Virus record (IMG/VR): IMGVR_UViG_3300021185_002566
Location: 1-20,068 of that record
Length of the DNA: 20,068 nucleotides
From: a virus
Strand: one strand, 5' to 3'
In this document: one piece after another, positions 2,442 to 16,257 of the stretch
How positions within the stretch are numbered: the first letter of the stretch is position 1
Layout: each line of letters starts with the position of its first letter
Notes under the pieces: model-generated
Database searches by the model: none
Seen by the model: only the letters and a program-made list of their open reading frames with translations
What the model was told of the DNA's origin: nothing
Made by a program: the position numbers and the translations under genes

Positions 2442-2834
2442 GTGCCATCATTTGTCTCGTTTAAAGATCTTAAGATCACGTTTAAGCCACATCCAATAAC
2501 TAATGATCTGCAATTATCAAAAGATGAAGCTGCAGTAAAACAAGCTGTTATTAATTTGATAATGACAGTACCTGGTGAACGTCCATTCCAAAGTGCGATT
2601 GGATCCGAATTAAATAGATTATTATTTGAACAATTTGATTATGGTGTAGCTGCACAAATAGAAACTGAAATTAAGAGTACAATTAATAACTTTGAGCCAA
2701 GGGTTGATATTAATAGTATTGACGTAACACTTGATTATGACGCTAATGCCTTTGCAGTGCATTTAGAATATAATATACGTGGTCGCACAGATATACCCAA
2801 TAGTATCGATTTCCTACTCCAGAGAACACAGTAA
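2442..2834 (+). CDS. 25: Baseplate wedge protein gp25 (GPW/gp25 family)
   Basis: 130 aa, the normal length for gp25. In T4-like tails gp25 joins gp6 and gp53 in the baseplate inner ring, and its family core seeds sheath assembly. Visible family features are MTVPGERPFQ (residues 41-50), GSELNRLLFE (54-63), and the EPR motif (85-87, in FEPRVDI), followed by a beta hairpin and an NIRGRTD segment. The start is GTG; an in-frame stop lies 15 nt upstream and no ATG is available. No Shine-Dalgarno sequence is evident. The stop overlaps the gp6 start (TAATG). Confidence 0.95.
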   Translation: MPSFVSFKDLKITFKPHPITNDLQLSKDEAAVKQAVINLIMTVPGERPFQSAIGSELNRLLFEQFDYGVAAQIETEIKSTINNFEPRVDINSIDVTLDYDANAFAVHLEYNIRGRTDIPNSIDFLLQRTQ

Positions 2835-4645
2835 TGAAGTATACCCAATATAGTAATCTAGATTTTGAGAGTATTAAGGTAACTCTTAAAGATTATTTAC
2901 GAGCACAAACAGATTTTACTGATTTTGATTTTGAAGGTTCAACGTGGAGTAATTTACTTGATGTTTTAGCGTATAACACATATTATACAGCATTTAACAC
3001 CAATATGGTGGTAAATGAATTATTTTTAGAATCTGCTACGTTAAGAGATAACGTAATTACATTAGCAAAGCAATTAGGTTATAAGCCTAAGTCAGTAGTT
3101 GCACCAGAAGCAGTAGTAAACTTTAAAGTAACATTTACTGGAACATATCCATCTTCAATAATTCTTAAGAAAGGCACAGGTTTTGTAACAACATTTGATG
3201 ATAAATTATATAGATTTGTTGTTGTTGATGATTGGAACGTTCCTGTTACTGCAGGAGAAGCATTATTCAATAATATTAAATTATATGAAGGTACTGTAGT
3301 AGAAGATACATATGTAGTTAAAACAGCAAATGCTAAACAGAAATTTATTTTAAAGAATGGAAGTGCAGATACTAGTAGTATTAGAGTAAAAGTTTATCCT
3401 ACTGCAACTTCTTCATCTTTTGTATATTACACTCAAATTGATAATATTATCGATATAGGTAGTAAGGATAATATTTTCTATGTTGATGAAAGTTTAGATG
3501 AGCAATATCGTCTTTTCTTTGGGGATGGTGTTATTGGTAGAAAATTAGTCAATAATGAATTAGTTAAGGTTTCTTATCTAACTACAAGTGGATCAACAAC
3601 TAATGGCGCTTCTAAGTTTTCATTTAGTGGTATTTTATTAGATGTGAGTGGTAATAGTTACCCAATGCAAATATCTAATGTTACTACTGTCTCAAATGCC
3701 TCTGGTGGATCGGAACTTGAGAATATAGATCAAATCAAGTTCAATGCTCCAAAACTCTATTCATCACAGAATAGAGCAGTTACAGCAGCAGATTATGGAG
3801 CAATAGTACGTAAGATCTATCCATCAGTATCTGACATCATTGTTTATGGTGGAGAAGAGGAAAGATACCCTGAATTTGGTAAAGTAAAGATTTGTATTAA
3901 ACCAAATAGCGGATCTAATCTATCAGCATTTACAAAACAAGATATTGTACAAAAATTAAAGGATTATGCTGTTGCTTCAGTAACACCCGAAATTAATGAT
4001 CCTTCAGTTGTTTATATTGAATTGAACAGTAAAGTAACATATAGTATAAACAAAACTAATCAATTCCCAGAGGAAATAAAAACAAAAGTTATTAAAGTAG
4101 TAGATGATTACTCACAGCAATCAGAAACAGAGAAGTTTAACGGTAAATTCAGACATAGTAAGTATATTGGTGTAATTGATGAAGCAGATCAATCGATTAT
4201 TTCCAATATAACAACAGTTATGCTGAGGAAGGATTTTTATCCTGCTATCAACTCAACATATTTTTATGAATTATGTTATCAAAATTCATTTAAAAAGTCT
4301 TGTGCTGGGCCAGTTATCCAAAGTACTGGATTTGTTGTTTCTGAGTATCCAAATTATGTTGTTTATTTTGAAGATAGGGATCTCGGAAATGAACTGGGAT
4401 CTATTGTCCTATATAGAATAGATTCCGCTACTGGTGATAAAATTATCTTAAACGATAGTCTTGGAACAGTGGATTATGATAAAGCGGAAATAATGTTACA
4501 TGATTTAACTATTATCAAAGGTACAATGTTTGATAATAGAATTGAAGTTCGTGCCGAACCTGCGATTTCTGATATTTCTGCTGCACGAAGTCTTTATTTA
4601 GATGTAGATATATCAAATAGCAAATTTGCGGTATACCCAGAGTAA
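2834..4645 (+). CDS. 6: Baseplate wedge protein gp6 (baseplate J-like)
   Basis: 603 aa, similar to T4 gp6 (about 660 aa). gp6 dimers form the continuous inner ring of the baseplate with gp25 and gp53. The N-terminal region (FDFEGSTWSNLLDVLAYNTY, then NELFLESATLRDNVITLAKQ and LGYKPKS) is the typical helical start of gp6/gp47-like wedge proteins. At 226-232 it has RLFFGDG, followed by VIGRKLVNNELVKVSYLTTS, the FGDG...Y..TSG pattern of baseplate J-type proteins. VTAADYGAIVRKIYPSVSDI is a further family-like segment. It is coupled to gp25 by a 1-nt overlap and followed 6 nt later by the giant gene. Confidence 0.95.
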   Translation: MKYTQYSNLDFESIKVTLKDYLRAQTDFTDFDFEGSTWSNLLDVLAYNTYYTAFNTNMVVNELFLESATLRDNVITLAKQLGYKPKSVVAPEAVVNFKVTFTGTYPSSIILKKGTGFVTTFDDKLYRFVVVDDWNVPVTAGEALFNNIKLYEGTVVEDTYVVKTANAKQKFILKNGSADTSSIRVKVYPTATSSSFVYYTQIDNIIDIGSKDNIFYVDESLDEQYRLFFGDGVIGRKLVNNELVKVSYLTTSGSTTNGASKFSFSGILLDVSGNSYPMQISNVTTVSNASGGSELENIDQIKFNAPKLYSSQNRAVTAADYGAIVRKIYPSVSDIIVYGGEEERYPEFGKVKICIKPNSGSNLSAFTKQDIVQKLKDYAVASVTPEINDPSVVYIELNSKVTYSINKTNQFPEEIKTKVIKVVDDYSQQSETEKFNGKFRHSKYIGVIDEADQSIISNITTVMLRKDFYPAINSTYFYELCYQNSFKKSCAGPVIQSTGFVVSEYPNYVVYFEDRDLGNELGSIVLYRIDSATGDKIILNDSLGTVDYDKAEIMLHDLTIIKGTMFDNRIEVRAEPAISDISAARSLYLDVDISNSKFAVYPE

Positions 4646-4651
4646 AATTAG

Positions 4652-7600
4652 ATGAATACACAGATTTCTTCTCTAATTAAAGATCAGCTGCCAGATTTTA
4701 TTGTCAGTGAGTATGACAATTTTGCTAAGGTTCTTGAGGGTTATTATCAGCAAATAGAAAGTACAGGACAACCTGTAGATCTTATTAATAATCTCTCGAC
4801 ATATCGCGATATAGATTTTTATGAAAAGCATTTATTAAAAGAAAGAACCACATTAGAAGTTTCTATTAATACTACTGATGAAACAATTACAGTAGCAGAT
4901 GCTCAATCATTTCCAGATAGGAATGGTTATATTAAAATTGGTGACGAAATTTTGTTCTATAAGGAAAGAACAGACACACAATTTAAGGAAGTATCACGTG
5001 GTATCAGTGGAGCTACCACATTAGGTGATTTATATACAGAAACTAGTTTTATTTCTTCTGAATCTTTATCACACACAAAAGGTGTGAATGTAGATAATTT
5101 AAGTCATTTATTCTTATATGCTCTAGTAAAGTCTTTTGAAAGTGAGTATCTAGAGTCTTTTCCCGAAAAATATTTAAAAAATGATGTTGATAAGAGAACT
5201 CTTATCAAAAATATTGGTAATTTCTATAAAGTAAAGGGTAATAATAAATCTATTAGGTTTATTTTCAATACTATCATCTCAAAGAGTGCAGATGATATTC
5301 CAACAACATATAATCCAAAAGACCACACAGTAAAGATCTCTACATCTGATTGGGATTCTTCTTATGGCATCCAAGCAGTTGTTTTATCTGGAGATGCAAC
5401 CTGGTTAATTGGAGAAAAGGTAGTACAGCAGGGAGATCGTAATTTACCAGGTGTTTCTTATGCTTCTGCTATTGTAGAGAATGCATATCAGATTGGAACA
5501 GTTGATGGAGCTCCATTATGGAATTTTATATTAAACCCATCTACCATTAATGGTGATTTTGTTATTCCACAACAAACAGTTTTAACTAAACCCATTTCGC
5601 AGTCTATGGCGAATGGAGACTTAATTACTGTTGATTCTACATTTGGTTGGAAGGATCAGGAAGGAATGGTTGTTGTTAATGGTGAGCAAATCAAGTATTC
5701 TGCTAAATCAGCACGACAGTTCACTATTAAAAATCGTGGAGTCATCTATCAGATACACAGTAAAGGTGATAAAGTCTACAATTACTCTACAGCAAAGGGT
5801 GTAACATCCAATGGAGTAGTTTCTTTATTGGTTTATGGTATTTTAACAAGTTTAGATACTGATTCGTCAACAAATTTATCACAGCCTGGTGATAAGATAC
5901 AAATTTCAAAACCAGGATTTGAAACTAGAGATCCTATACTATATGATGAATTTAGTCAAAATTATAGATGGAAAGTAAATATAAATGCTGTTGGTCCATC
6001 AGTCCCCCTAAACCCAGTCATAGCAGCGAGTTTGAGCGACTACATTGCTGATGTTTCATCGATATATGAAGATGAGCAATATTATTATATTGCTACTTCT
6101 AGTTATCCTTCTACTCATATACTACCATCTACTGTTAGTGACACATTAGTAGATCCAAATTTATTAAAACTTATTCCCAAAAAGACAACTACTACTACTG
6201 AGGTGTTTAGTACACCCAGAGATGAAATTGGTGTTTTTGTTGATGGAACAATTGCGTATAGTTATAAGGACAAAAATTTAATTGAATATGGTCCTATTAC
6301 TAAGTTTAATATAAAAAATAGAGGTGCTGGTTACCAAAAACCTCCATATGTTCTAATTGATGGGAATCCCGATAAAGCAACTGCTGTTTTAACTGGTAAT
6401 AGTGTTAGTAATATTGTAACAACAGATAAAACAAATTACACCAATGCACCTTCAGTAGAAATTGTTAGTGGTAGGAAAGCAGATCTAAGACCAATTATAA
6501 CATCTGGTGCGGTTAGTAGTATACTTATTTTAGACGGAGGAGAATACTATTCTTCACCTCCTAGTATCATTATTGGTGATGAAGTAGGTAAAGGAAAATT
6601 TGCTGAATATATTGCAGTACTTTCTGATGGAAAGATTGTAGATACAATTAAAATTGATGGAGGAAAATATTATACACAAGAGAATGTTACTATAAATCTG
6701 ATACCAGATGCTTATTCTAATAGTGCTGTAGCGACAGCAGAAATTTATGAATGGATTAAAGACAGATATGTTACAAACAAACAGAATTTTGACAGTAACG
6801 GTGGGGTAGTTGTCACCAATAATGATAATGAGAGTCATTATGGTGTAGTTGTTAACCCCAAACTTTTAAGATATAGATTAGGTGATAGTTTAACATCATC
6901 AACATTAGAAGAAACTACTGTTGTTGCACACTCACCTATTCTTGGTTATGCTTATGACGGTCATCCCATATATGGTCCATATGGTCATTTAAATCCTCTT
7001 GATAAGAATTCTGCTATTGTCAGAATGAATAGTGGATATAATTTAAAGGCAGATAGATCAGATGGTCCTGTGTTGGATGATGCTCCATATCCTATGGGTA
7101 CATTTATCGATGACTATCAGTGGGTTGCTGATGTTAATACAGGTAAAACTAGGTTAGATCGTAATAATGGTAGGTTCTGTGTCACACCAGAATATCCTGC
7201 TGGTGTTTATGCATATTTTTTGACTATTAATGAAGATCAGGAACCAGTATTCCCATATATTTGTGGATATAATTTTTATTCGATTCCAGTAGCATCTAAT
7301 TATGAATATAACATCAAGCAAAGTTCTTTACCAAGAAATGCTAAACGTCTTTATATTTCAGGTACTTTAAAGAATGGTGATGGAGAAATTGCTATCATCG
7401 ATGATGTTTCATCAGGATCAGTTTCCTCTGTTGTTGTAGAGGACTCGCAACCATCCTTTACTATAGGCTCCAGGATTTATGTTGATAATGACCACACAGG
7501 TGGTGTAGGCGCTTCTGGGGTAGTTTCCTTGACATATGGTAAATCTGTCAAATCTTTAGAATCTAGATCACCTGCTGCAAATTTATTAACTTCATTAACG

Positions 7601-10600
7601 CCGTTATATTCATTTGCTGGTGATATTATCACTCAACCTTCTACTGGTGCTACTGGTGAATTATTACGTGATATTATTGAAGAAACATCTTTTGTTGTTA
7701 GAAATGTACAGGGCAAATTTGAACCAGAATTAGATCTTACTGTAGGAACATCATCCAAAACAATTAATTCTAGTTCTGTTGTGATGAACCTTTTACTTTC
7801 ACAGGATAGTAGTTATACAAAGGATGCTACTTTATCATTAGTTAAAAAAGCAGATACTAGTGATGTTATTGCTAGCGGAAAAGTTTTATCAGCGACAAAT
7901 GATCAAAATGCTGTTCGTGTACTTGTAGAAGTTGGAGATTTCAACGATTTTATCAATTATCAGGATGGAGATACTATTTTAAAGAGTAGTGATGTTGCTA
8001 ATACAGCAGGAACTGAAATTGAAATCGTAAAGCAGTTAAGTAAAGATATTGTTATTATTAGCGTACAGGATAATATTGCTATTGTTGAGACTGATGGCGA
8101 TCATAATATGGCGGAAGGAGATGTTGCCAATATTGAGATTGATCCTGACGAATCAACAACTGAATCAACATATTGGGTAAGAAGAAAGAAATTCCAAGAA
8201 TTGGATTTAGTTCCACAAGGATTCAATGGAAAATTAAATGATACTGGTATTGGACATTCTAGTTTAGTTGCATATGGTAGAGATTATGTTGCTGGCACGT
8301 ATAATGATGTAGAGTTAATTTTCAGTGACCATAATAAAGATAGAGAAAATATTGGTGCTGTAGGTGCATCAGGAAATGCTAAAGGAAAAATTATCGTTCC
8401 TTCTACTAATTTTGATGGTAGTGGTAATATTTCATCAATTGAAATTACTGATGGAGGAAAAGGATATTCTGTAGATGATATTTTAACAGTTAATTCTACT
8501 GATGTTCCTAAGATAGATCCTTCTGCTTCGAGTGTTACTATTTCTCCCCCACCAACAGCAAGTTACCTGAATGAAGATGAAGTAGAGGCTTTTGCAATTT
8601 ATAAGTTTACTGTAGGTTCTCCTGATCCAACATGGCATGCAACTGTACAAGAGGCATGGACAGATCTTACTACTAATGTTCTGCCATCACAAGCAGGTGT
8701 ATCATTTTGGACTTATCAGGATCATGATTTTTTAGTTGCTGATGGTAGTGCAATTTCTGTAAATGATCACTTAATTATTGATAGTGAAATTGTAAATGTA
8801 GTAGAAGTAACAGGAAATACAATTAAAGCTAGTCGTACTAATTTTGGTACATTTTCCACAGAACATGTTGAAAATTCTCTGGTTTCCCTTTTAGAACCTG
8901 GCAGTACTCCAACAGATATTTCTTCTGATATAGGATACTTTGATGCTGTTATTACTGTTACTTCTACTACTGGTATTGGTGACTATATAAAAATTAAGAA
9001 TGAGATCTTTAAAGTTGACAGTATTTCTGGAAATGATCTTACTGTTGTTAGAGGACAATTTGGAACATATCCACAATTGCATTATACTGGAGATGAGGTT
9101 CAGTTATACACATATACTCCAGATGTAACTACACTAACTACAGTTGCCCCAATTGCTACTAACGTAAGATTGTGGTATGTTAGTAAAAATGATGATATTT
9201 TTGAAGTAACTTATTCTATATCTAACGATGTACCTAGTCTGACAGATCAGATGTGGTTTACTGGAGATAATAATTCAGAGATTAATATTGGTTCTGTTTT
9301 TACAGATTATCCTAGTTATTCACCAAGACCACAATATAGACTCATTATTGATGGAGTTGAAAATCCATCGTATACAATGCGAGTTGGTTCTGTTTTTACA
9401 ATGGATGCTGTTATTGGTCATCCAATATGGATTGTTCATGATTATACAACTACACTAGCTAGTGATGGTGTGGCATTAGTAATGGATTCTTATAATGCAG
9501 TTAGTGGTGTTACTAATAATGGAGTTAATCAAACTGAAGGAGCTTCGCAAGAGCAAATAGTATTTACACCACAATATCCAGGAACATATTATTATGTTTG
9601 TACCATGCATCCAGAAATGAGTGGTATGATTACTGTTGTAGATGATGCAAGTGCTTCTATTCCTTTGATTGGTGTTCATAATATTGGTTTGGGTGTTGAT
9701 AGAACAGATGCAATATTAGATACGGTATATTCATTAGCAGAAGGTGATCACTTAAAGGTTAATGATGAAATTTTAAAGATTACTGCTGTTGATAATACAA
9801 CCAGAAAGGTTACTTTCGATAGGGCACAAGAAAATACTATTAAAGTTAACCATCCTTTAAATGATAATATAGTTGCTTATAAACCACACTATAGATTTAC
9901 TTTTAATCAAAAGATTTTTGGTAGTGATGCTAATGATCCTAGAGTCATTTCATATGACAAGGAAACTCATAAGTTATTAGTTGCTTTCGATTTTATACAC
10001 GAAGGTGCTACTAACCCTAGAGTAATTACAGAAATTTCTTCTTTCTTTGATCACAGTAATCCATCAAAGACAGTTTCTATCTCCAAAGCATATGATGTAT
10101 TAGAGAAATTACAATTCTCACCAGATAATACCAATTTTGAAACTAATCCAGTATTACAGATTCAAAAGTATTATTTCTATAAATTTGATACTAGTCATCC
10201 ATCTATGCTTGGTTCTTATTTGGATATTTCCACAAGTCCCAATTATAATATCTTTACTGAAGAGAAAGAAGTTGGATTGATTGAACCTGGTAATGCAGGT
10301 GCTCAAGTTAGAATTAGATTGGGTTATGGTCCTAATATTGGTGATGTAAAGAGAAAAACAGTTAATTTCATATCTTATTACTACTTCTTAACTACAGAAG
10401 ATATTGATACTGGCGGTTCTTATTTGAGTGTGCGAGAAGATCCCCTTGCTGGTGATAATACTATTATATACACAACTGATAATAAGTTTGTTTATAATTT
10501 AGATGGAGTTCCACAATACGATGGAACTGGTGATATTAGATATAGAGGAAGATCTGTTGGCAAAATTGCTTCTATTGCATTAGACAATTTGGGTTCCGAT

Positions 10601-13600
10601 TATATCTCTATGCCTAGAATTAAAGGAGTAGTTCCTGCACCAGAGTACAAAGCAGAAATAGAATGTATTAGAGATATTTTAGATCTAAATGTAAAGGAAT
10701 TAGTTCTCAAGAGTTCTGGTAAAGGATATTCAAAACCAGAAGCAGTAGTTTCTAATGGTGATGGCACTGGTTTGAAAATTAAAGTAACCAATGTTAACGG
10801 TTCTATTGTTAAGGCAGAAATTATAAACAAAGGATCTGGATACACATACACACCAACAATTGATGTTATTGAAACTGATAATAAGATATTCTTTAAATCA
10901 AATGAAATTGGTATACCGAAAAGTGTTAAATTCATTAAATATGGTTCTGGATATCACAATGATAATTCCATTATTCCATTTTTTACGTCACCTTATATTT
11001 TTACCCTATCAAATTTTGATACAGATGCTTTTCGGATTGGGGAAAAAGTTGAGCAGCGAGTTAATGGATTAGTTGTAGCATCTGGTACTGTTGCTAAGAA
11101 TGGTTGGACATTTGGATCCAATATATTGAGAATGGATAACATCACTGGTGTTTTTAGAGAAAGTTATTCTATTATTAATAAGAATCGTGGAAACAAGACT
11201 GCTTTTATTGTTTCTATTGAATATTCCAAATTTAATCCTATTACTACAACTAGGGAAAGACAATTAGGTAGATTTTCTTCAAATAGAGGACACCTTAATT
11301 CTGTTAATCAAAGAATTACTGATTCTGATTTTTATCAAGATTATTCTTATGTGATTAGGTCGAGAACTCAAGTTAAGGATTGGCGTAATGCAATCAAAGA
11401 GACAACCCATCCAGCTGGATTTAAAGTATTTGGTGAGGTTTATTTAGAATCAGAAGCATCTACATTAATGGATGTTGCTCAAGACCATACAGAAAAACAT
11501 ACAACATATGTTGTTCTTCCTCCGGTAAAAGTTACATCTCTTTCCACAAAGAGAACAATTACACAGAGATATTTCACTGCAATTAATCATCAAATTGAAA
11601 GAGGACAAGGTTCTGTCGCATTTGATGAATTTGACGAAACTTTAACAAGAACCAGAGAAATTACATTATCACCTGCTTTTGATGGTACTTTTGATTCTTC
11701 AACTGGTTTGCAAGTAGGAACAACTCAATTTAGTATTATTGATAAAAAAACTGGTCTTGCTTACCAACCATTTAATGAGCAGGAATTGATGATTACTATT
11801 GATGGTGTTGCTCAGCGGCCAATAACTTCATTTAGGGTTATTGGCAATCAAATCAAATTCTACGAACCGCCACTTGGTGAGAGGACTTCAGAAGGTCAAA
11901 TTGTATCTCCGCAAACTTTTTATGGTAGAGCATTTAAGTTTTCTGAAGATATTAATAATGTTCGTTATTTGAAGAGGTTGAAGAATATATCAGATGATTT
12001 TGATGGTAGACAAAAGAACTTTGATTTGTATTGGGAAGATGGAAGTATTGTTAAAACAGATTTGGATGAGAACTTATTGATATACCTTGATAGTATACTA
12101 CAGCAAGGATCTTATACTATTAAAAGATTTGTTAGTAACAATAAGACAGATAGACTTATATTCAAGAAGGCTCCGAAAAATTATGCAGATTTGCATAGTG
12201 ATGCTCCAAAATCTTTGCAAAATGAGCAATATTTTTATGGTCAAAGTGTTGGAAATTATCAAAGGATGCATATTGATGAGAATGTAATTCCTTATAGTCG
12301 CACAAATTCTTATATTATTTTCGATAAAGAGAATAGCGTAAAGGGATTTGATGATCCATTGTATGCATATGTTTATGTAAATGGTGTTTTACAACAAGAT
12401 TTAGATTCTTATATAATCTCTGGACCATCCATTAGATTCCACAAACCACTAAAATTCAGCAAACAATCTGATGGATCTTATATCACTGATAAAGTAGATA
12501 TTTTGTATTTTTATGGAAAGAATTATCAACCAACAGCAACTTGTTTTGATTTTGAAAGTGATGTTTTCTATAACAGAACAACAATTACATTTGATGGCGC
12601 GAATACTTATGATAAATTTTTAAGTTGGTTTGGTCCACAAGCATCATCAAGTACTTACGTTTACCAAATTCTTGATGGTAAAAAATATTTGTTTGGAAAT
12701 GTGTTGCGTGTTGTTCCATCTGCAGGAAATACATGGGTGGTGGATTTGCAATCACAAAATGTAAAGTTCAATGTTAATGGTAGAGTATATTTTACAAAAT
12801 CTCGTTCATTAGATGGTTCTAATGAAATAGATATTTCTTTCGATGATATTAATGTTCAATATAACACTAATACACAAGGAGAAAGACTTCTGAATAGATC
12901 AGAAATTAATATTTTATCATGGGCAGAAACTGGTGATAACTTAGATAGTTATCAGCATACAGGGGAATTGTTTAAAGAACACCCAACACTTAAAAAGAAT
13001 GATCGTATTAAAATTGATGGTGAGTTTGCATATCGTGATGTTAAGAGTGTACCTTTCTTTGCGAAATCAAAAGAATATAATGATGGTCATCAAGTATCAA
13101 ATAGTTTCTTTTCTAAAATTGCTGTAAGTGAATATAATGGAGAAAAACTTGGTGAAGGATTCAGTATTACTGCATCACTTACAAATGATACCATTAGTAA
13201 ACTTGACTGGAATAGAAGAGATCTTGAATTATATTTTGATAATGGCCTTTTATTGAGTCCAACTGCTTATAATTATTATACACCACCTATTATTAATTTT
13301 ATACCAGTTGATGGCAATGGTGGTGGAGCAAAAGCACAAGTTTTGGTTTATGGTGGACAAATCATAGACATTATTTTAGTTGATGGTGGATCTGGTTATA
13401 CAAAGCCACCAAAAATTGTAATTTCTAGAGGATATGATATTATTCGTATCGATGATACTTTTGAATCTTCTGCTGCAATTAAACTTCATAATGTTGGTTA
13501 TCAAGGAAGTTGGGCTGGTATGAATCCTAGTACTGTTTGTACTATTAATTTGTGGCGGCGAGAGTTAATGGAATCTTTTGCTGTCTTTATTCTTCCTCCC

Positions 13601-14323
13601 GTTACGGGACAAATTACTATAGTTGGTCAAACTATTATTGCGTTTGATCCAGGTTTAAATGCTTTAGAAAGATTTATTACTCAAATAGTGACACCTGCTG
13701 ATGAAAGCGTTGCGATGTCAAATGATTCCACTACTTATATTGAGAATGATATTGAATGTAAAATTAATGCTTCTTACTTAACATATGAGCATCCTGTTAC
13801 TAAACATACTTATTGCGGTATGATTGATATGTTACAAGAATCAGTAGAAAATCCATCATTGTATAATCAAGGTAAATTGGGATCAACTGTCGCTTCGTTT
13901 ATGGAATATCTTTATACTGATGTTGGTACATTGGGTACTGGTATTAGTTTGGAGCAATTTGAAATTTTCTACCCATTCATTTTGATTAATCAAAATCCTG
14001 GTAACTGGATGGAAAACTATGAGGTTGATTATAGTTCTATAACAACTAATGGTGTGTTATTCAATCCAGGAATTCCTTCCATCTCTAATCGTGCTGGATA
14101 TCTTAGTAGTGCTTTTAATCCAGGAGATACTTGGATGTACATTACAGGATCTACATCACACTTCCCTGCAACTGGTAAATTATTAGTTGATGGAGAGATT
14201 ATTAGGTATAGTGGATCGGTCAATGATGATCGTTTTATTATATCTGAAAGAGGTGTTGATGGAACTATAGAAGCATCTCATGCTATAGGAAAATATTTCC
14301 TTGAGACTGGCAAGTATAATTAA
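4652..14323 (+). CDS. Giant modular virion protein at the gp7 position, with gp7-like segments, YHYH and cupredoxin-like domains
   Basis: 3223 aa in one uninterrupted frame, about three times T4 gp7 (1032 aa), which occupies the same place between genes 6 and 8. Residues ~13-60 (LPDFIVSEYDNFAKVLEGYY) and ~160-212 (DKRTLIKNIGNFYKVKGNNK, SIRFIFN) resemble, as I recall it, the C-terminal part of T4 gp7. A later piece, ~2230-2260 (YVIRSRTQVKDWRNAIKE, HPAGFKVFGE, H2253), resembles a gp7 segment that in T4 follows closely. Between them lie a YHYH domain (~754-879), a cupredoxin-like domain (~1561-1665), and repeats of beta-rich motifs. Residues ~2380-2885 carry another repeat type, and the C-terminal end has one more motif copy. 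No signal peptide or membrane span is seen. It is probably a baseplate wedge protein with an extended peripheral decoration. The start ATG has only weak upstream purines. Confidence 0.9.
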   Translation: MNTQISSLIKDQLPDFIVSEYDNFAKVLEGYYQQIESTGQPVDLINNLSTYRDIDFYEKHLLKERTTLEVSINTTDETITVADAQSFPDRNGYIKIGDEILFYKERTDTQFKEVSRGISGATTLGDLYTETSFISSESLSHTKGVNVDNLSHLFLYALVKSFESEYLESFPEKYLKNDVDKRTLIKNIGNFYKVKGNNKSIRFIFNTIISKSADDIPTTYNPKDHTVKISTSDWDSSYGIQAVVLSGDATWLIGEKVVQQGDRNLPGVSYASAIVENAYQIGTVDGAPLWNFILNPSTINGDFVIPQQTVLTKPISQSMANGDLITVDSTFGWKDQEGMVVVNGEQIKYSAKSARQFTIKNRGVIYQIHSKGDKVYNYSTAKGVTSNGVVSLLVYGILTSLDTDSSTNLSQPGDKIQISKPGFETRDPILYDEFSQNYRWKVNINAVGPSVPLNPVIAASLSDYIADVSSIYEDEQYYYIATSSYPSTHILPSTVSDTLVDPNLLKLIPKKTTTTTEVFSTPRDEIGVFVDGTIAYSYKDKNLIEYGPITKFNIKNRGAGYQKPPYVLIDGNPDKATAVLTGNSVSNIVTTDKTNYTNAPSVEIVSGRKADLRPIITSGAVSSILILDGGEYYSSPPSIIIGDEVGKGKFAEYIAVLSDGKIVDTIKIDGGKYYTQENVTINLIPDAYSNSAVATAEIYEWIKDRYVTNKQNFDSNGGVVVTNNDNESHYGVVVNPKLLRYRLGDSLTSSTLEETTVVAHSPILGYAYDGHPIYGPYGHLNPLDKNSAIVRMNSGYNLKADRSDGPVLDDAPYPMGTFIDDYQWVADVNTGKTRLDRNNGRFCVTPEYPAGVYAYFLTINEDQEPVFPYICGYNFYSIPVASNYEYNIKQSSLPRNAKRLYISGTLKNGDGEIAIIDDVSSGSVSSVVVEDSQPSFTIGSRIYVDNDHTGGVGASGVVSLTYGKSVKSLESRSPAANLLTSLTPLYSFAGDIITQPSTGATGELLRDIIEETSFVVRNVQGKFEPELDLTVGTSSKTINSSSVVMNLLLSQDSSYTKDATLSLVKKADTSDVIASGKVLSATNDQNAVRVLVEVGDFNDFINYQDGDTILKSSDVANTAGTEIEIVKQLSKDIVIISVQDNIAIVETDGDHNMAEGDVANIEIDPDESTTESTYWVRRKKFQELDLVPQGFNGKLNDTGIGHSSLVAYGRDYVAGTYNDVELIFSDHNKDRENIGAVGASGNAKGKIIVPSTNFDGSGNISSIEITDGGKGYSVDDILTVNSTDVPKIDPSASSVTISPPPTASYLNEDEVEAFAIYKFTVGSPDPTWHATVQEAWTDLTTNVLPSQAGVSFWTYQDHDFLVADGSAISVNDHLIIDSEIVNVVEVTGNTIKASRTNFGTFSTEHVENSLVSLLEPGSTPTDISSDIGYFDAVITVTSTTGIGDYIKIKNEIFKVDSISGNDLTVVRGQFGTYPQLHYTGDEVQLYTYTPDVTTLTTVAPIATNVRLWYVSKNDDIFEVTYSISNDVPSLTDQMWFTGDNNSEINIGSVFTDYPSYSPRPQYRLIIDGVENPSYTMRVGSVFTMDAVIGHPIWIVHDYTTTLASDGVALVMDSYNAVSGVTNNGVNQTEGASQEQIVFTPQYPGTYYYVCTMHPEMSGMITVVDDASASIPLIGVHNIGLGVDRTDAILDTVYSLAEGDHLKVNDEILKITAVDNTTRKVTFDRAQENTIKVNHPLNDNIVAYKPHYRFTFNQKIFGSDANDPRVISYDKETHKLLVAFDFIHEGATNPRVITEISSFFDHSNPSKTVSISKAYDVLEKLQFSPDNTNFETNPVLQIQKYYFYKFDTSHPSMLGSYLDISTSPNYNIFTEEKEVGLIEPGNAGAQVRIRLGYGPNIGDVKRKTVNFISYYYFLTTEDIDTGGSYLSVREDPLAGDNTIIYTTDNKFVYNLDGVPQYDGTGDIRYRGRSVGKIASIALDNLGSDYISMPRIKGVVPAPEYKAEIECIRDILDLNVKELVLKSSGKGYSKPEAVVSNGDGTGLKIKVTNVNGSIVKAEIINKGSGYTYTPTIDVIETDNKIFFKSNEIGIPKSVKFIKYGSGYHNDNSIIPFFTSPYIFTLSNFDTDAFRIGEKVEQRVNGLVVASGTVAKNGWTFGSNILRMDNITGVFRESYSIINKNRGNKTAFIVSIEYSKFNPITTTRERQLGRFSSNRGHLNSVNQRITDSDFYQDYSYVIRSRTQVKDWRNAIKETTHPAGFKVFGEVYLESEASTLMDVAQDHTEKHTTYVVLPPVKVTSLSTKRTITQRYFTAINHQIERGQGSVAFDEFDETLTRTREITLSPAFDGTFDSSTGLQVGTTQFSIIDKKTGLAYQPFNEQELMITIDGVAQRPITSFRVIGNQIKFYEPPLGERTSEGQIVSPQTFYGRAFKFSEDINNVRYLKRLKNISDDFDGRQKNFDLYWEDGSIVKTDLDENLLIYLDSILQQGSYTIKRFVSNNKTDRLIFKKAPKNYADLHSDAPKSLQNEQYFYGQSVGNYQRMHIDENVIPYSRTNSYIIFDKENSVKGFDDPLYAYVYVNGVLQQDLDSYIISGPSIRFHKPLKFSKQSDGSYITDKVDILYFYGKNYQPTATCFDFESDVFYNRTTITFDGANTYDKFLSWFGPQASSSTYVYQILDGKKYLFGNVLRVVPSAGNTWVVDLQSQNVKFNVNGRVYFTKSRSLDGSNEIDISFDDINVQYNTNTQGERLLNRSEINILSWAETGDNLDSYQHTGELFKEHPTLKKNDRIKIDGEFAYRDVKSVPFFAKSKEYNDGHQVSNSFFSKIAVSEYNGEKLGEGFSITASLTNDTISKLDWNRRDLELYFDNGLLLSPTAYNYYTPPIINFIPVDGNGGGAKAQVLVYGGQIIDIILVDGGSGYTKPPKIVISRGYDIIRIDDTFESSAAIKLHNVGYQGSWAGMNPSTVCTINLWRRELMESFAVFILPPVTGQITIVGQTIIAFDPGLNALERFITQIVTPADESVAMSNDSTTYIENDIECKINASYLTYEHPVTKHTYCGMIDMLQESVENPSLYNQGKLGSTVASFMEYLYTDVGTLGTGISLEQFEIFYPFILINQNPGNWMENYEVDYSSITTNGVLFNPGIPSISNRAGYLSSAFNPGDTWMYITGSTSHFPATGKLLVDGEIIRYSGSVNDDRFIISERGVDGTIEASHAIGKYFLETGKYN
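6911..7288 (+). other. YHYH domain inside the giant protein (residues ~754-879)
   Basis: This segment has the family signature GYAYDGHPIYGPYGHL (765-780). It continues with APYPMGTFIDDYQW, a Leu-Asp-x-x-Asn-Gly-Arg-Phe run (LDRNNGRFCVTPEYPAGVYA), and a closing Pro-x-Phe-Pro-Tyr (PVFPYICG). YHYH domains occur in marine bacterial and phage proteins and have no settled function. The core Tyr, His and Gly positions are intact, so the domain is probably folded. Confidence 0.85.
9332..9646 (+). other. Cupredoxin-like domain inside the giant protein (residues ~1561-1665)
   Basis: The order of elements fits a cupredoxin beta sandwich: YRLIIDGVENPSYTMRVGSV, then GHPIWIV with H1590, then GVTNNG, then QIVFTPQYPGTYYYVC, TMHPEM and SGMITV. 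H1590, C1650, H1653 and M1656 would be the four type 1 copper ligands. The Cys-x2-His-x2-Met loop has the short spacing of amicyanin rather than plastocyanin. M1659 is another candidate axial ligand. Repeat-A modules flank the domain on both sides. Copper binding is inferred, not shown. Confidence 0.8.
11788..13300 (+). repeat. Protein repeat family D (three to four copies in the giant protein)
   Basis: A unit of about 50-60 residues: strand, (D/N)(G/S)xxQ, a strand with Tyr, I(K/R)FxxP, and a closing (F)YG. Approximate copies: 11788-11940 (MITIDGVAQRP, IKFYEPPLGE, FYGRAF), 12065-12240 (LIYLDSILQQGSYTI, LIFKKAP, FYGQSV), 12361-12530 (YVYVNGVLQQDLDSYII, IRFHKPL, FYGKNY), and a partial 13216-13300 (LELYFDNGLLLSPTAYNYY, INFIPV). 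The pattern resembles the NGxxQ...Y strand repeats of phage tail-fibre-like proteins. Confidence 0.6.
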
Positions 14324-14385: not shown

Positions 14386-16257
14386 ATGGCTGCTATAATC
14401 TCCGAAAAGTTTAGAATTTTTAATGCAAAGCAGTTCTTAGAGTCTTTGACTGAAGGCGCTACGGACACATCTGCAGATCGATCTAGGATGTATTTCTTTG
14501 TAGGACGACCTCAAGCATGGAATTCGTTCCTAGAAATTTATTCCATCGATGGTGGATCATTCAGTGCAGGTCAATCAGTATATGTTGGTGCTGATTGGGC
14601 AAACGCTACATTTAGAGGAACTATCGAACAAGTACTAGATAATAGTTTAATTTTATCTTCTATTGGTCCTTTACCAACATCAGCACCATCATTGGGATCT
14701 TTACTAAAGGGTTATGATGGTTCTGCAAATACGAACGTTACAGCAAATACTGGGGTTTATAGGTATTCTAGGAATGATGTTCCTCCAGTTCCTTTAGATA
14801 ACCAGGTAGAAAAATACGATATATATGACGATATCATTGCATCTAAGAGGATTACTTCTTCTTATGCAAGATCAGTAATTCGGAGATACAATTACGATCC
14901 AATCACTAATCCTAGATTTGATATGTGGAAACCTGATTATTCTGATACTCCAGCTGGTGGTGGTCAGATTGGTAAATCCACAGGTACGGGTGCTACTTCG
15001 ATTTCTAACGCAAAATTTTACGTTATGAATCAAAGGTATGAGGTGTTTAAGTGCATCTATAATGGAGAAAGTGCTGCAAATCCAAGTGGAGTTGATGTTC
15101 AACACGAACCATTTACTGCTCCTTCTGCTGGATTGGGTACATATGATGCTGCTACACGCAATTTCACTGCTCCTGATAAATCATATATTTGGAAGTATGT
15201 GTTCACCATCCCAACAGATGATGTCTTAGCATTTCTTTCAACTGATTTTATGCCTATTGTTGAATCTGCTGAACCTACTAGGGTTGCTACCGAAGCAGCA
15301 GCAGTTGATGGATCAGTTGATGTTGCTGTAATCAAGAATGTTGGTGCAGATCTTCCTAATGCAGGTACATATTATGCACCAGTTCTTGGTGATGGTACTG
15401 GTGGTATTGTTAAAATTGTAACCACTGGTGGTACAATTGATACTGCTGAGTTGGTTCAAGTTGGTTCTGGTTATACCTATGCCACATGTCCTATTATAAC
15501 CGGCATTCCTCTTGGAACTGCAGGTAGTACAGAAGCAATTGGTTTGTTCTCTGATAGTGCATTTACTACTTCAGAAACAGTAACTGCAACTGACACTCCT
15601 TCTTTAGAGATAATTCTTTCACCACAGGGTGGACATGGTTCCGATTTAGAGACAGAATTGAATGCTAAGCGAGTAATGACAAATATTCGCCTCACTTTCA
15701 TCGAAAGTGCTGGTGATTTCCCTGTTGATAATGATTTCCGTCGTATTGGCATTATTAAAGATCCTCTTATTCCTGGTGGCGGTGATTTTGCTACCGATGA
15801 TACTCTTAACGGATTGTATGCTGTTAAGATTACAAGTACAACAGCAGATTATATTCCTGACGAAACAATCACTCAGACAGTTGCTGGCGGGACTGCATTG
15901 GGTCAAGTAGTATCTTGGACGCGAGATGTACCTGGAACTGCTCCGACACCTTCTACACCCGGTAGCGGCGTGTTGAAGTACATCCAATCACCACAAGTAC
16001 ATCAAAACAATGGTGTTGTTAGAGCATTTGAATCTAGTGCTGCTAATGCTATTACTGGCGATCAATCCAATACACCTGGAACTGTCCATCATGATTATGC
16101 AAATGGTACATTATTATTAGGTTGCACTTTTAATAGTGGATTGGCATCTCCAGAACTTCAAAACAACAGTGGAGATCTCATATACATAGAGAACAGAAGA
16201 CTAATCACCAGAGCTCCTGATCAAATCGAAGATATTAAATTAGTCATCGAATTCTGA
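14386..16257 (+). CDS. 8: Baseplate wedge protein gp8, enlarged
   Basis: 623 aa, against about 334 in T4 gp8. gp8 is a dimeric wedge protein that binds gp6 and gp7 in the outer baseplate. The ends match T4 gp8 as I recall it: N-terminal ISEKFRIFNAKQFLES and MYFFVGRPQAW, a middle part with YEVFKCIYNG and SYIWKYVFTIPTDDVLAF, DNDFRRIGIIKDPL (448-461), and C-terminal SGDLIYIENRRLITRAPDQI, then EDIKLVIEF. The extra length lies around residues 310-430 and 480-590. Those stretches include a family-B motif (QVGSGYTYATCPII) and a family-C-like unit (ETITQTVAGGTALGQVVSW), so they look like module insertions. No Shine-Dalgarno sequence is seen before the ATG; an overlapping late-promoter pair lies upstream. 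Confidence 0.93.
   Translation: MAAIISEKFRIFNAKQFLESLTEGATDTSADRSRMYFFVGRPQAWNSFLEIYSIDGGSFSAGQSVYVGADWANATFRGTIEQVLDNSLILSSIGPLPTSAPSLGSLLKGYDGSANTNVTANTGVYRYSRNDVPPVPLDNQVEKYDIYDDIIASKRITSSYARSVIRRYNYDPITNPRFDMWKPDYSDTPAGGGQIGKSTGTGATSISNAKFYVMNQRYEVFKCIYNGESAANPSGVDVQHEPFTAPSAGLGTYDAATRNFTAPDKSYIWKYVFTIPTDDVLAFLSTDFMPIVESAEPTRVATEAAAVDGSVDVAVIKNVGADLPNAGTYYAPVLGDGTGGIVKIVTTGGTIDTAELVQVGSGYTYATCPIITGIPLGTAGSTEAIGLFSDSAFTTSETVTATDTPSLEIILSPQGGHGSDLETELNAKRVMTNIRLTFIESAGDFPVDNDFRRIGIIKDPLIPGGGDFATDDTLNGLYAVKITSTTADYIPDETITQTVAGGTALGQVVSWTRDVPGTAPTPSTPGSGVLKYIQSPQVHQNNGVVRAFESSAANAITGDQSNTPGTVHHDYANGTLLLGCTFNSGLASPELQNNSGDLIYIENRRLITRAPDQIEDIKLVIEF

Follow-up and report, generated by a model that had tools for sequence, protein, structure and literature searches.

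A cupredoxin-like domain was predicted inside a giant baseplate protein of a virus, with His, Cys, His and Met in cupredoxin order and register, and the same domain was found to recur widely, as a module, in the tail and baseplate proteins of phages. On balance we favor the reading that it is a metal-pinned beta-sandwich contact module, with copper as the predicted metal, that was inserted into a baseplate wedge protein.

The window, as we call the whole stretch of 20,068 bases of viral DNA that was analyzed, had the baseplate gene order of cyanomyoviruses. A PAAR-like ORF (1503-1808), whose scores were below curated cut-offs, was followed by a SET-domain ORF of 99 aa (2125-2424, + strand; PF00856, E 1.3e-10) and by gp25 (2442-2834). 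Then came a gp6-like baseplate wedge subunit (2834-4645, + strand; phrog_219), a giant VrlC-like virion protein of 3223 aa (4652-14323, + strand), a gp8-like baseplate wedge subunit (14386-16257, + strand; phrog_438 and PF09215) and, last in order, a long DUF4815/phrog_358 protein. The order of gp25, gp6, giant protein and gp8 was identical in S-CAM3 and S-CAM1; in the latter, an ORF annotated as ferredoxin occupied the slot of the window's SET-domain ORF, beside gp25. The giant protein matched phrog_4406 (virion structural protein) and phrog_2885 (baseplate wedge subunit), and one orthologue (H193) carried the annotation VrlC. VrlC apparently stands in for T4 gp7, according to a pelagimyophage paper (PMC7029224). 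A YHYH domain was located at aa 695-860 of the giant protein (6734-7231, + strand; PF14240, E 1.2e-25, 91 bits); by eye, its name-giving motif seems to be YAYF here. A jumbo-phage survey describes this domain as a predicted metal-dependent hydrolase of baseplates, and the words cupredoxin and copper are absent from that survey (PMC7824862).

The cupredoxin-like domain covered aa 1560-1663 of the giant protein (9329-9640, + strand) by the model and the alignments, in agreement with the first-pass annotation, which had put a domain of cupredoxin strand order at approximately aa 1561-1665 (9332-9646). The predicted type 1 metal ligands were exactly those named there: H1590, the first His, in GHPIWI (9419-9421); C1650, the thiolate (9599-9601); H1653, the second His (9608-9610); and M1656, the axial ligand (9617-9619), all on the + strand. 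The ligand loop CTMHPEM was of the form C-x2-H-x2-M, which is the spacing of amicyanin, as had been proposed. It occurred once in the giant protein against 0.0005 occurrences expected (2000 shuffles of the protein), which, with the fold and the family, rules out a chance motif. By eye, the stretches on both sides of the domain (aa 1400-1545 and 1670-1750) resembled repeats of a module of about 65 aa with the core D-x-I/L-K-I/V-N/D-x-E-I, and similar stretches were seen near both ends of the giant protein.

When aa 1551-1668 (118 aa) were modeled by AlphaFold2 with our family alignment A2 as input, a pLDDT of 89.3 and a pTM of 0.80 were obtained. In the DSSP assignment of the model, H1590 (model residue 40) was directly before strand E42-52, strand E94-100 ended at C1650 (residue 100), and H1653 and M1656 (residues 103 and 106) were in the loop preceding strand E107-113, the arrangement of cupredoxins. 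The top PDB matches in Foldseek were rusticyanin, amicyanin and AcoP, then NirK and plastocyanin, with TM-scores up to 0.55 among the matches listed; immunoglobulin domains were mixed in from rank 12 downward. Both amicyanin and plastocyanin, against which the first-pass annotation had wished to see a predicted structure compared, were thus among the fold matches. The best 50 rows of VIA-align were all of cupredoxin type and all copper proteins apart from one factor VIII entry, which we take to be cupredoxin-like as well. Their Z values ranged from 8.8 (rmsd 3.0 over 87 residues) to 6.2 and are middling by the standard that the tool itself gives, which lends weight to the sequence evidence. 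The model is a confident one and indicates that aa 1560-1663 probably adopt the cupredoxin fold, a Greek-key beta-sandwich.

The window domain was recognized weakly by curated family models. It scored 21.0 bits (E 3.4e-4) on Cupredoxin_1 with a cut-off of 27, 15.3 bits on PF00127 (Copper-bind) with a gathering score of 21.2, and 18.4 bits on TIGR02657 (amicyanin, NCBIfam) with a cut-off of 110.2. These scores, below every curated Pfam and NCBIfam cut-off, count against the metal-pinned reading. Alignment A2, from which the HMM used below was also built, consisted of the window domain, eight giant-protein orthologues and 71 of the 76 listed IMG/VR rows, with a mean column identity of 30%. At E ≤0.01, its 80 rows gave Copper-bind for 25, the At5g54830-like domain for 14 and Cupredoxin_1 for 8. 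The A2 profile matched plastocyanin, amicyanin and rusticyanin of the PDB at E 2e-5 to 5e-5, with no protein that is a phage protein by name among the best 60 of 74 matches. In hhalign, all four ligands were in register with those of four true cyanophage plastocyanins (probability 68%, E 4.7e-5).

Type 1 blue copper proteins are small separate electron carriers. Amicyanin, plastocyanin and rusticyanin are alike with the window domain in fold, ligand set and ligand order, and they differ from it in being such carriers, whereas the domain is part of a 3223-aa virion protein. Rusticyanin also has a GTYYYVC stretch in common with the domain, and amicyanin has the C-x2-H-x2-M loop. Amicyanin by descent was rejected, since loop length alone fits and the amicyanin score was far below its cut-off (18.4 of 110.2 bits). 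Plastocyanin as the identity of the domain was rejected as well: that family wants a C-x2-H-x4-M loop in a short exported protein, the window has C-x2-H-x2-M inside a giant one, the score was below the Pfam cut-off, and the cyanophages examined mostly carried a distinct petE gene.

It counts against copper that virion assembly takes place in the cytosol, a compartment with little free copper; on such general grounds zinc is favored, and zinc or no metal is possible. Cys-His-His-Met with an amicyanin-like loop is nevertheless the classic copper set, and the nearest solved relatives of the domain are copper proteins. Both points argue against a site in which zinc or iron takes the place of copper and acts only as a structural pin. 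The report of His-coordinated iron sites in the tail protein gp37 of T4 (PMC11705849) is on the side of that reading, which we consider improbable.

True plastocyanin genes were found in addition to the tail module. Eight of the ten cyanophage records examined had a true petE above the Pfam cut-off (66.9 to 74.1 bits), and the six virion-type copies listed from these records scored 13.3 to 19.8 bits on PF00127, all below it. Cyanophage petE thus occurs in the same phages as the tail module and aligns with the window family at all four ligands; unlike the module, it is a separate gene with an open frame of 107-131 aa that exceeds the PF00127 cut-off. The four petE sequences displayed had a CxPHxGxGM loop and a signal-like N-terminus. 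P-SSM2 (L006, NC_006883.2) carried four tail-type copies in three ORFs in addition to petE. In S-SCSM2R, the gene annotated PetE (L161, PQ898602.1 170926-171432) was a tail-type cupredoxin-like domain adjoining genes annotated FhaB and peptidase S8, and the true plastocyanin was at 79-321 of the record, a warning that a gene called petE automatically in a marine virus may in fact encode a tail domain. In passages of two papers from the literature search, plastocyanin is treated only as a host-derived metabolic gene.

It is conceivable that the tail site is a redox-active copper center, which would sense the cell surface or pass an electron during adsorption. The type 1 ligand set is intact, cyanophages carry true plastocyanin genes as well, and S-CAM1 has the ferredoxin ORF beside gp25. 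However, the true plastocyanin is a separate gene, and no redox partner or electron path was visible in the virion; because no partner was in sight, we judged electron transfer very unlikely.

The first-pass annotation had presented the site as unexpected. It is no isolated case: marine cyanophages commonly carry this module in their tail and baseplate proteins. When a tail copy of P-SSM2 was used as query, 353 of the 50,697 phage records searched contained relatives at a threshold of E 0.01 (350 at E 0.001). By name these were Synechococcus (271), Cyanophage (55), Prochlorococcus (19), Marine (4), Pelagibacter (2), uncultured (1) and Actinomycetia (1), so that nearly all carriers were named as marine cyanophages. 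For scale, gp6 of the window reached 373 "Synechococcus" and 61 "Cyanophage" records, both being tallies by name and not matched records. With the window domain as query, 23 phage records were reached, and the P-SSM2 tail copy was found by tblastn at E 2e-8. Among 60 evenly stepped rows of the 353-record search, 42 were annotated as gp9-like "baseplate wedge tail fiber" (connector), and the others as tail pin, tail fiber, minor tail, virion structural or hypothetical proteins, with one PetE.

The last ~110 positions of phrog_677, the gp9-like connector family, corresponded to this cupredoxin-like domain. All nine chosen carriers that were scanned matched phrog_677, up to position 408-410, and the window copy (P0001) matched it at 369-410 of 412 (E 4.4e-6). 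The window domain also fitted the module pattern HP...GVTNNG...YY-x-C-x2-H-x2-M-x-G in alignments A1 and A2. The C-terminal part of the phrog_677 connector is the same domain with H-C-H-M as in the window protein. It sits in tail-fiber connectors and fibers, whereas the window copy is inside a giant VrlC-like baseplate protein and has a longer stretch from the first His to Cys than the phrog_677-type copies. In 142 distinct ORFs, one copy was found in 119, two in 19 and three in 4; the domain was at most 15 aa from the ORF end in 30 of them and further inside in 112. The second ORFs of L054, L063, L076 and L047 each had three copies in tandem, and in L063, L047 and L076 one or two of these copies were without ligands and retained the G-x-YYY motif.

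In BFVD, 29 viral models matched (E ≤0.001). The top five were proteins of marine or uncultured phages, mostly tail proteins, and a few lower-ranked matches were from unrelated viruses. Fold matches in BFVD included "beta-sandwich" proteins of Pithovirus (A0A481Z6J5) and Marseillevirus (A0A481YVH3) and a "blue type 1 copper protein" of Fadolivirus (A0A7D3QVK4), the last two at E 0.003. In bacterial and archaeal loci, the HMM found the domain in 11 of 12, as 12 copies; His, Cys and His were present in all 12, and Met in 11 with Gln in the remaining one. Nine of these copies aligned with the phage profile at E 9.4e-40 (hhalign). The bacterial HPF...Y-x-C-x2-H-x2-M domains (Marivirga, Flavobacterium, Acidobacteria and others) are clear homologues of the phage module, in proteins of unknown role and not in virions, some with DUF7282 or CHRD. 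Two Marivirga proteins (L151 and L152) had four and six DUF7282 stretches, respectively, before a C-terminal cupredoxin-like domain.

To score ligand conservation, 216 phage copies were collected, of which 23 were set aside as cut or gapped at a ligand and 193 were scored. A filter at 80% identity, which removes overlapping loci of the same contigs, left 80 distinct copies. This count excludes the bacterial loci L149-L160, loci L184-L195 (petE loci plus four duplicates of loci with the virion domain) and the true plastocyanin L183 (hence 80 rather than 81). Five rows were left out of A2, including two ligand-losers (one copy each of L122 and L071); their loci are still within the set of the 80-copy count. 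All four ligands were kept in 69 of the 80 copies, and each single ligand was kept in 74 (H1653 and M1656) or 75 (H1590 and C1650). Some patterns of the single-sequence scan overlapped ligands, so the conservation of the first His and of Cys is biased upward, and the fairer figure is that of non-seed copies, those through which no locus had been retrieved: among 25 distinct ones 19 were intact, with all copies in loci L126 and above counted as seeds. When copies were first counted, using another profile and a threshold of 90%, all four ligands were present in 91 of 105.

When ligands were lost, they tended to be lost together: one was lost in five copies, two in two, three in three and all four in one. 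At least three were missing in 4 of the 80 copies compared with 0.097 expected when columns were shuffled independently, a level reached in 0 of 10,000 shuffles, although this figure is not a strict probability because the phage copies are related to each other. Loss of four never occurred in 10,000 column shuffles. Four control columns, hand-picked from the most conserved non-ligand columns minus the never-varying one, were of similar conservation (kept in 77, 76, 73 and 72 of 80) and never lost three together; all four control residues were kept in each of the six copies that had lost at least two ligands. The ligands thus covary as a set in the wider family, a point that the first-pass annotation had proposed to check. 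Loss as a set is the pattern expected of a functional metal site. Since copies without ligands retained the fold residues, the beta-sandwich can persist without metal, which counts against the metal-pinned reading.

The domain was carried in the giant protein by three lineages. The window, L002 and L003 had H-C-H-M, as did the eight displayed sequences of the S-CAM1 lineage (10 IMG/VR loci). The S-CAM3 lineage (5 IMG/VR loci, 4 distinct sequences) had H-C-H-A, with Ala for the axial Met, which counts against the metal-pinned reading. Natural blue copper proteins without a Met ligand exist, and M98A amicyanin, crystallized with Cu(II), was among the fold matches; the S-CAM3 Ala therefore weakens the case for copper and does not break it. 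His-Cys-His was intact in every giant-protein orthologue sequence examined. The concern that close homologues might lose ligands was accordingly borne out for the axial Met in S-CAM3 and not for the other three positions.

The same data bear on a rival reading, in which the fold serves the phage simply as a sandwich for adhesion or spacing, with the ligands an inherited relic or binding nothing in the virion. We consider this reading unlikely and clearly less probable than the metal-pinned module. Ligand-free copies persist in other tail proteins with their fold residues kept (YSAM, HSSV, FAVM and DSNI at the ligand positions), suggesting that the fold can serve without metal, and the S-CAM3 clade has Ala for the axial Met. 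However, a relic would be expected to lose its ligands one by one and not as a set, most distinct copies keep all four in spite of the low mean identity of A2, and His-Cys-His is unbroken in the orthologues.

The domain lies within a removable segment of the giant protein. In BLASTP of the giant protein (P0002) against its counterpart in AG-345-P14 (L141), aa 1-1306 aligned with 1-1288 at 66% and aa 1671-3223 with 1286-2827 at 61%, so that AG-345-P14 lacks a segment of approximately aa 1307-1670 (8570-9661, + strand) that holds the domain; the left border is approximate, similarity being weak on that side. The cupredoxin HMM had no match in the giant ORF, as far as it was covered, of S-PM2, Sf-CH1a, Syn1, S-RSM4, S-CAM4, S-MbCM7 and S-B43. 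Seven of these eight records, AG-345-P14 included, had such a domain in another ORF (E ≤0.001), S-CAM4 having first entered the relatives because of its own copy; in S-PM2, none was found in any other ORF at E 0.001. Three ligands were missing from the S-B43 copy, and in S-RSM4 and Sf-CH1a the domain was seen partly or in pieces.

Between the window and L003, dN was 0.072 in the domain and 0.086 just upstream, compared with 0.009-0.024 elsewhere. The domain changed faster than the rest of the giant protein in two of eight orthologue pairs (window/L003 and L129/L130; p 8e-5 and 7e-4, unadjusted), not in the six others, and slower in one (p 0.02, unadjusted); the eight pairs overlap and, having sequences in common, are not independent. 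On these counts we claim no general positive selection on the domain, striking as window/L003 is, and host-driven diversification is not general.

For the metal-pinned contact module, we propose the following. A portable cupredoxin module would have been inserted into the cyanophage baseplate wedge protein, forming a Greek-key beta-sandwich with a single metal site of type 1-like character (His-Cys-His plus Met). The metal, most probably copper, would be acquired after assembly or on release and would fasten to each other the loops at one sandwich end. The loop face so stiffened, presumably exposed on the outside, may contact the host surface or neighboring tail parts, with a role in contact or stability. 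Within the family, the x positions of C-x2-H-x2-M are variable, which would be expected of a loop face that meets diverse partners. Taken as a whole, the first-pass interpretation is partly supported: it stood as to the fold and the four-ligand site, and it needs change in that the module is no isolated case and that the S-CAM3 orthologues have Ala at the axial position.

Among the open-access papers listed by full-text search and judged by title and start of abstract (subscription papers and preprints being outside the scope of the search), none was on a cupredoxin in phage virions. Old as the cupredoxin fold is, the papers so listed do not describe it as a module widespread in virions. The textbook role of blue-copper sites is to carry electrons in respiration and photosynthesis. 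A conserved site of this type, with ligands kept or lost as a set, in the tails of marine phages that are very common would put the fold to a new use. Iron in phage tails has been proposed through the His-x-His sites of T4 gp37 and the Ferrojan (Trojan) horse hypothesis (PMC11705849). That proposal likewise places a metal site on tail proteins of marine phages; it concerns iron held by HxH motifs, whereas the window domain is a predicted cupredoxin. With the tail cupredoxin module, copper would join the list of metals possible in phage tails. As the module is a single domain of 118 aa, it allows a direct bench test by metal content and color. A broader idea, which we hold to be doubtful, is that holo type 1 copper centers are general on marine cyanophage tails, with copper from the sea or the lysate taken up onto gp9-type connectors and VrlC-type baseplate proteins and the copper face engaging the host envelope. 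If true, such centers would parallel the Ferrojan horse with copper in place of iron. Phages would then make up, as particles, a measurable share of the kinds of organic ligand that bind copper in the ocean, and their adsorption would require copper.
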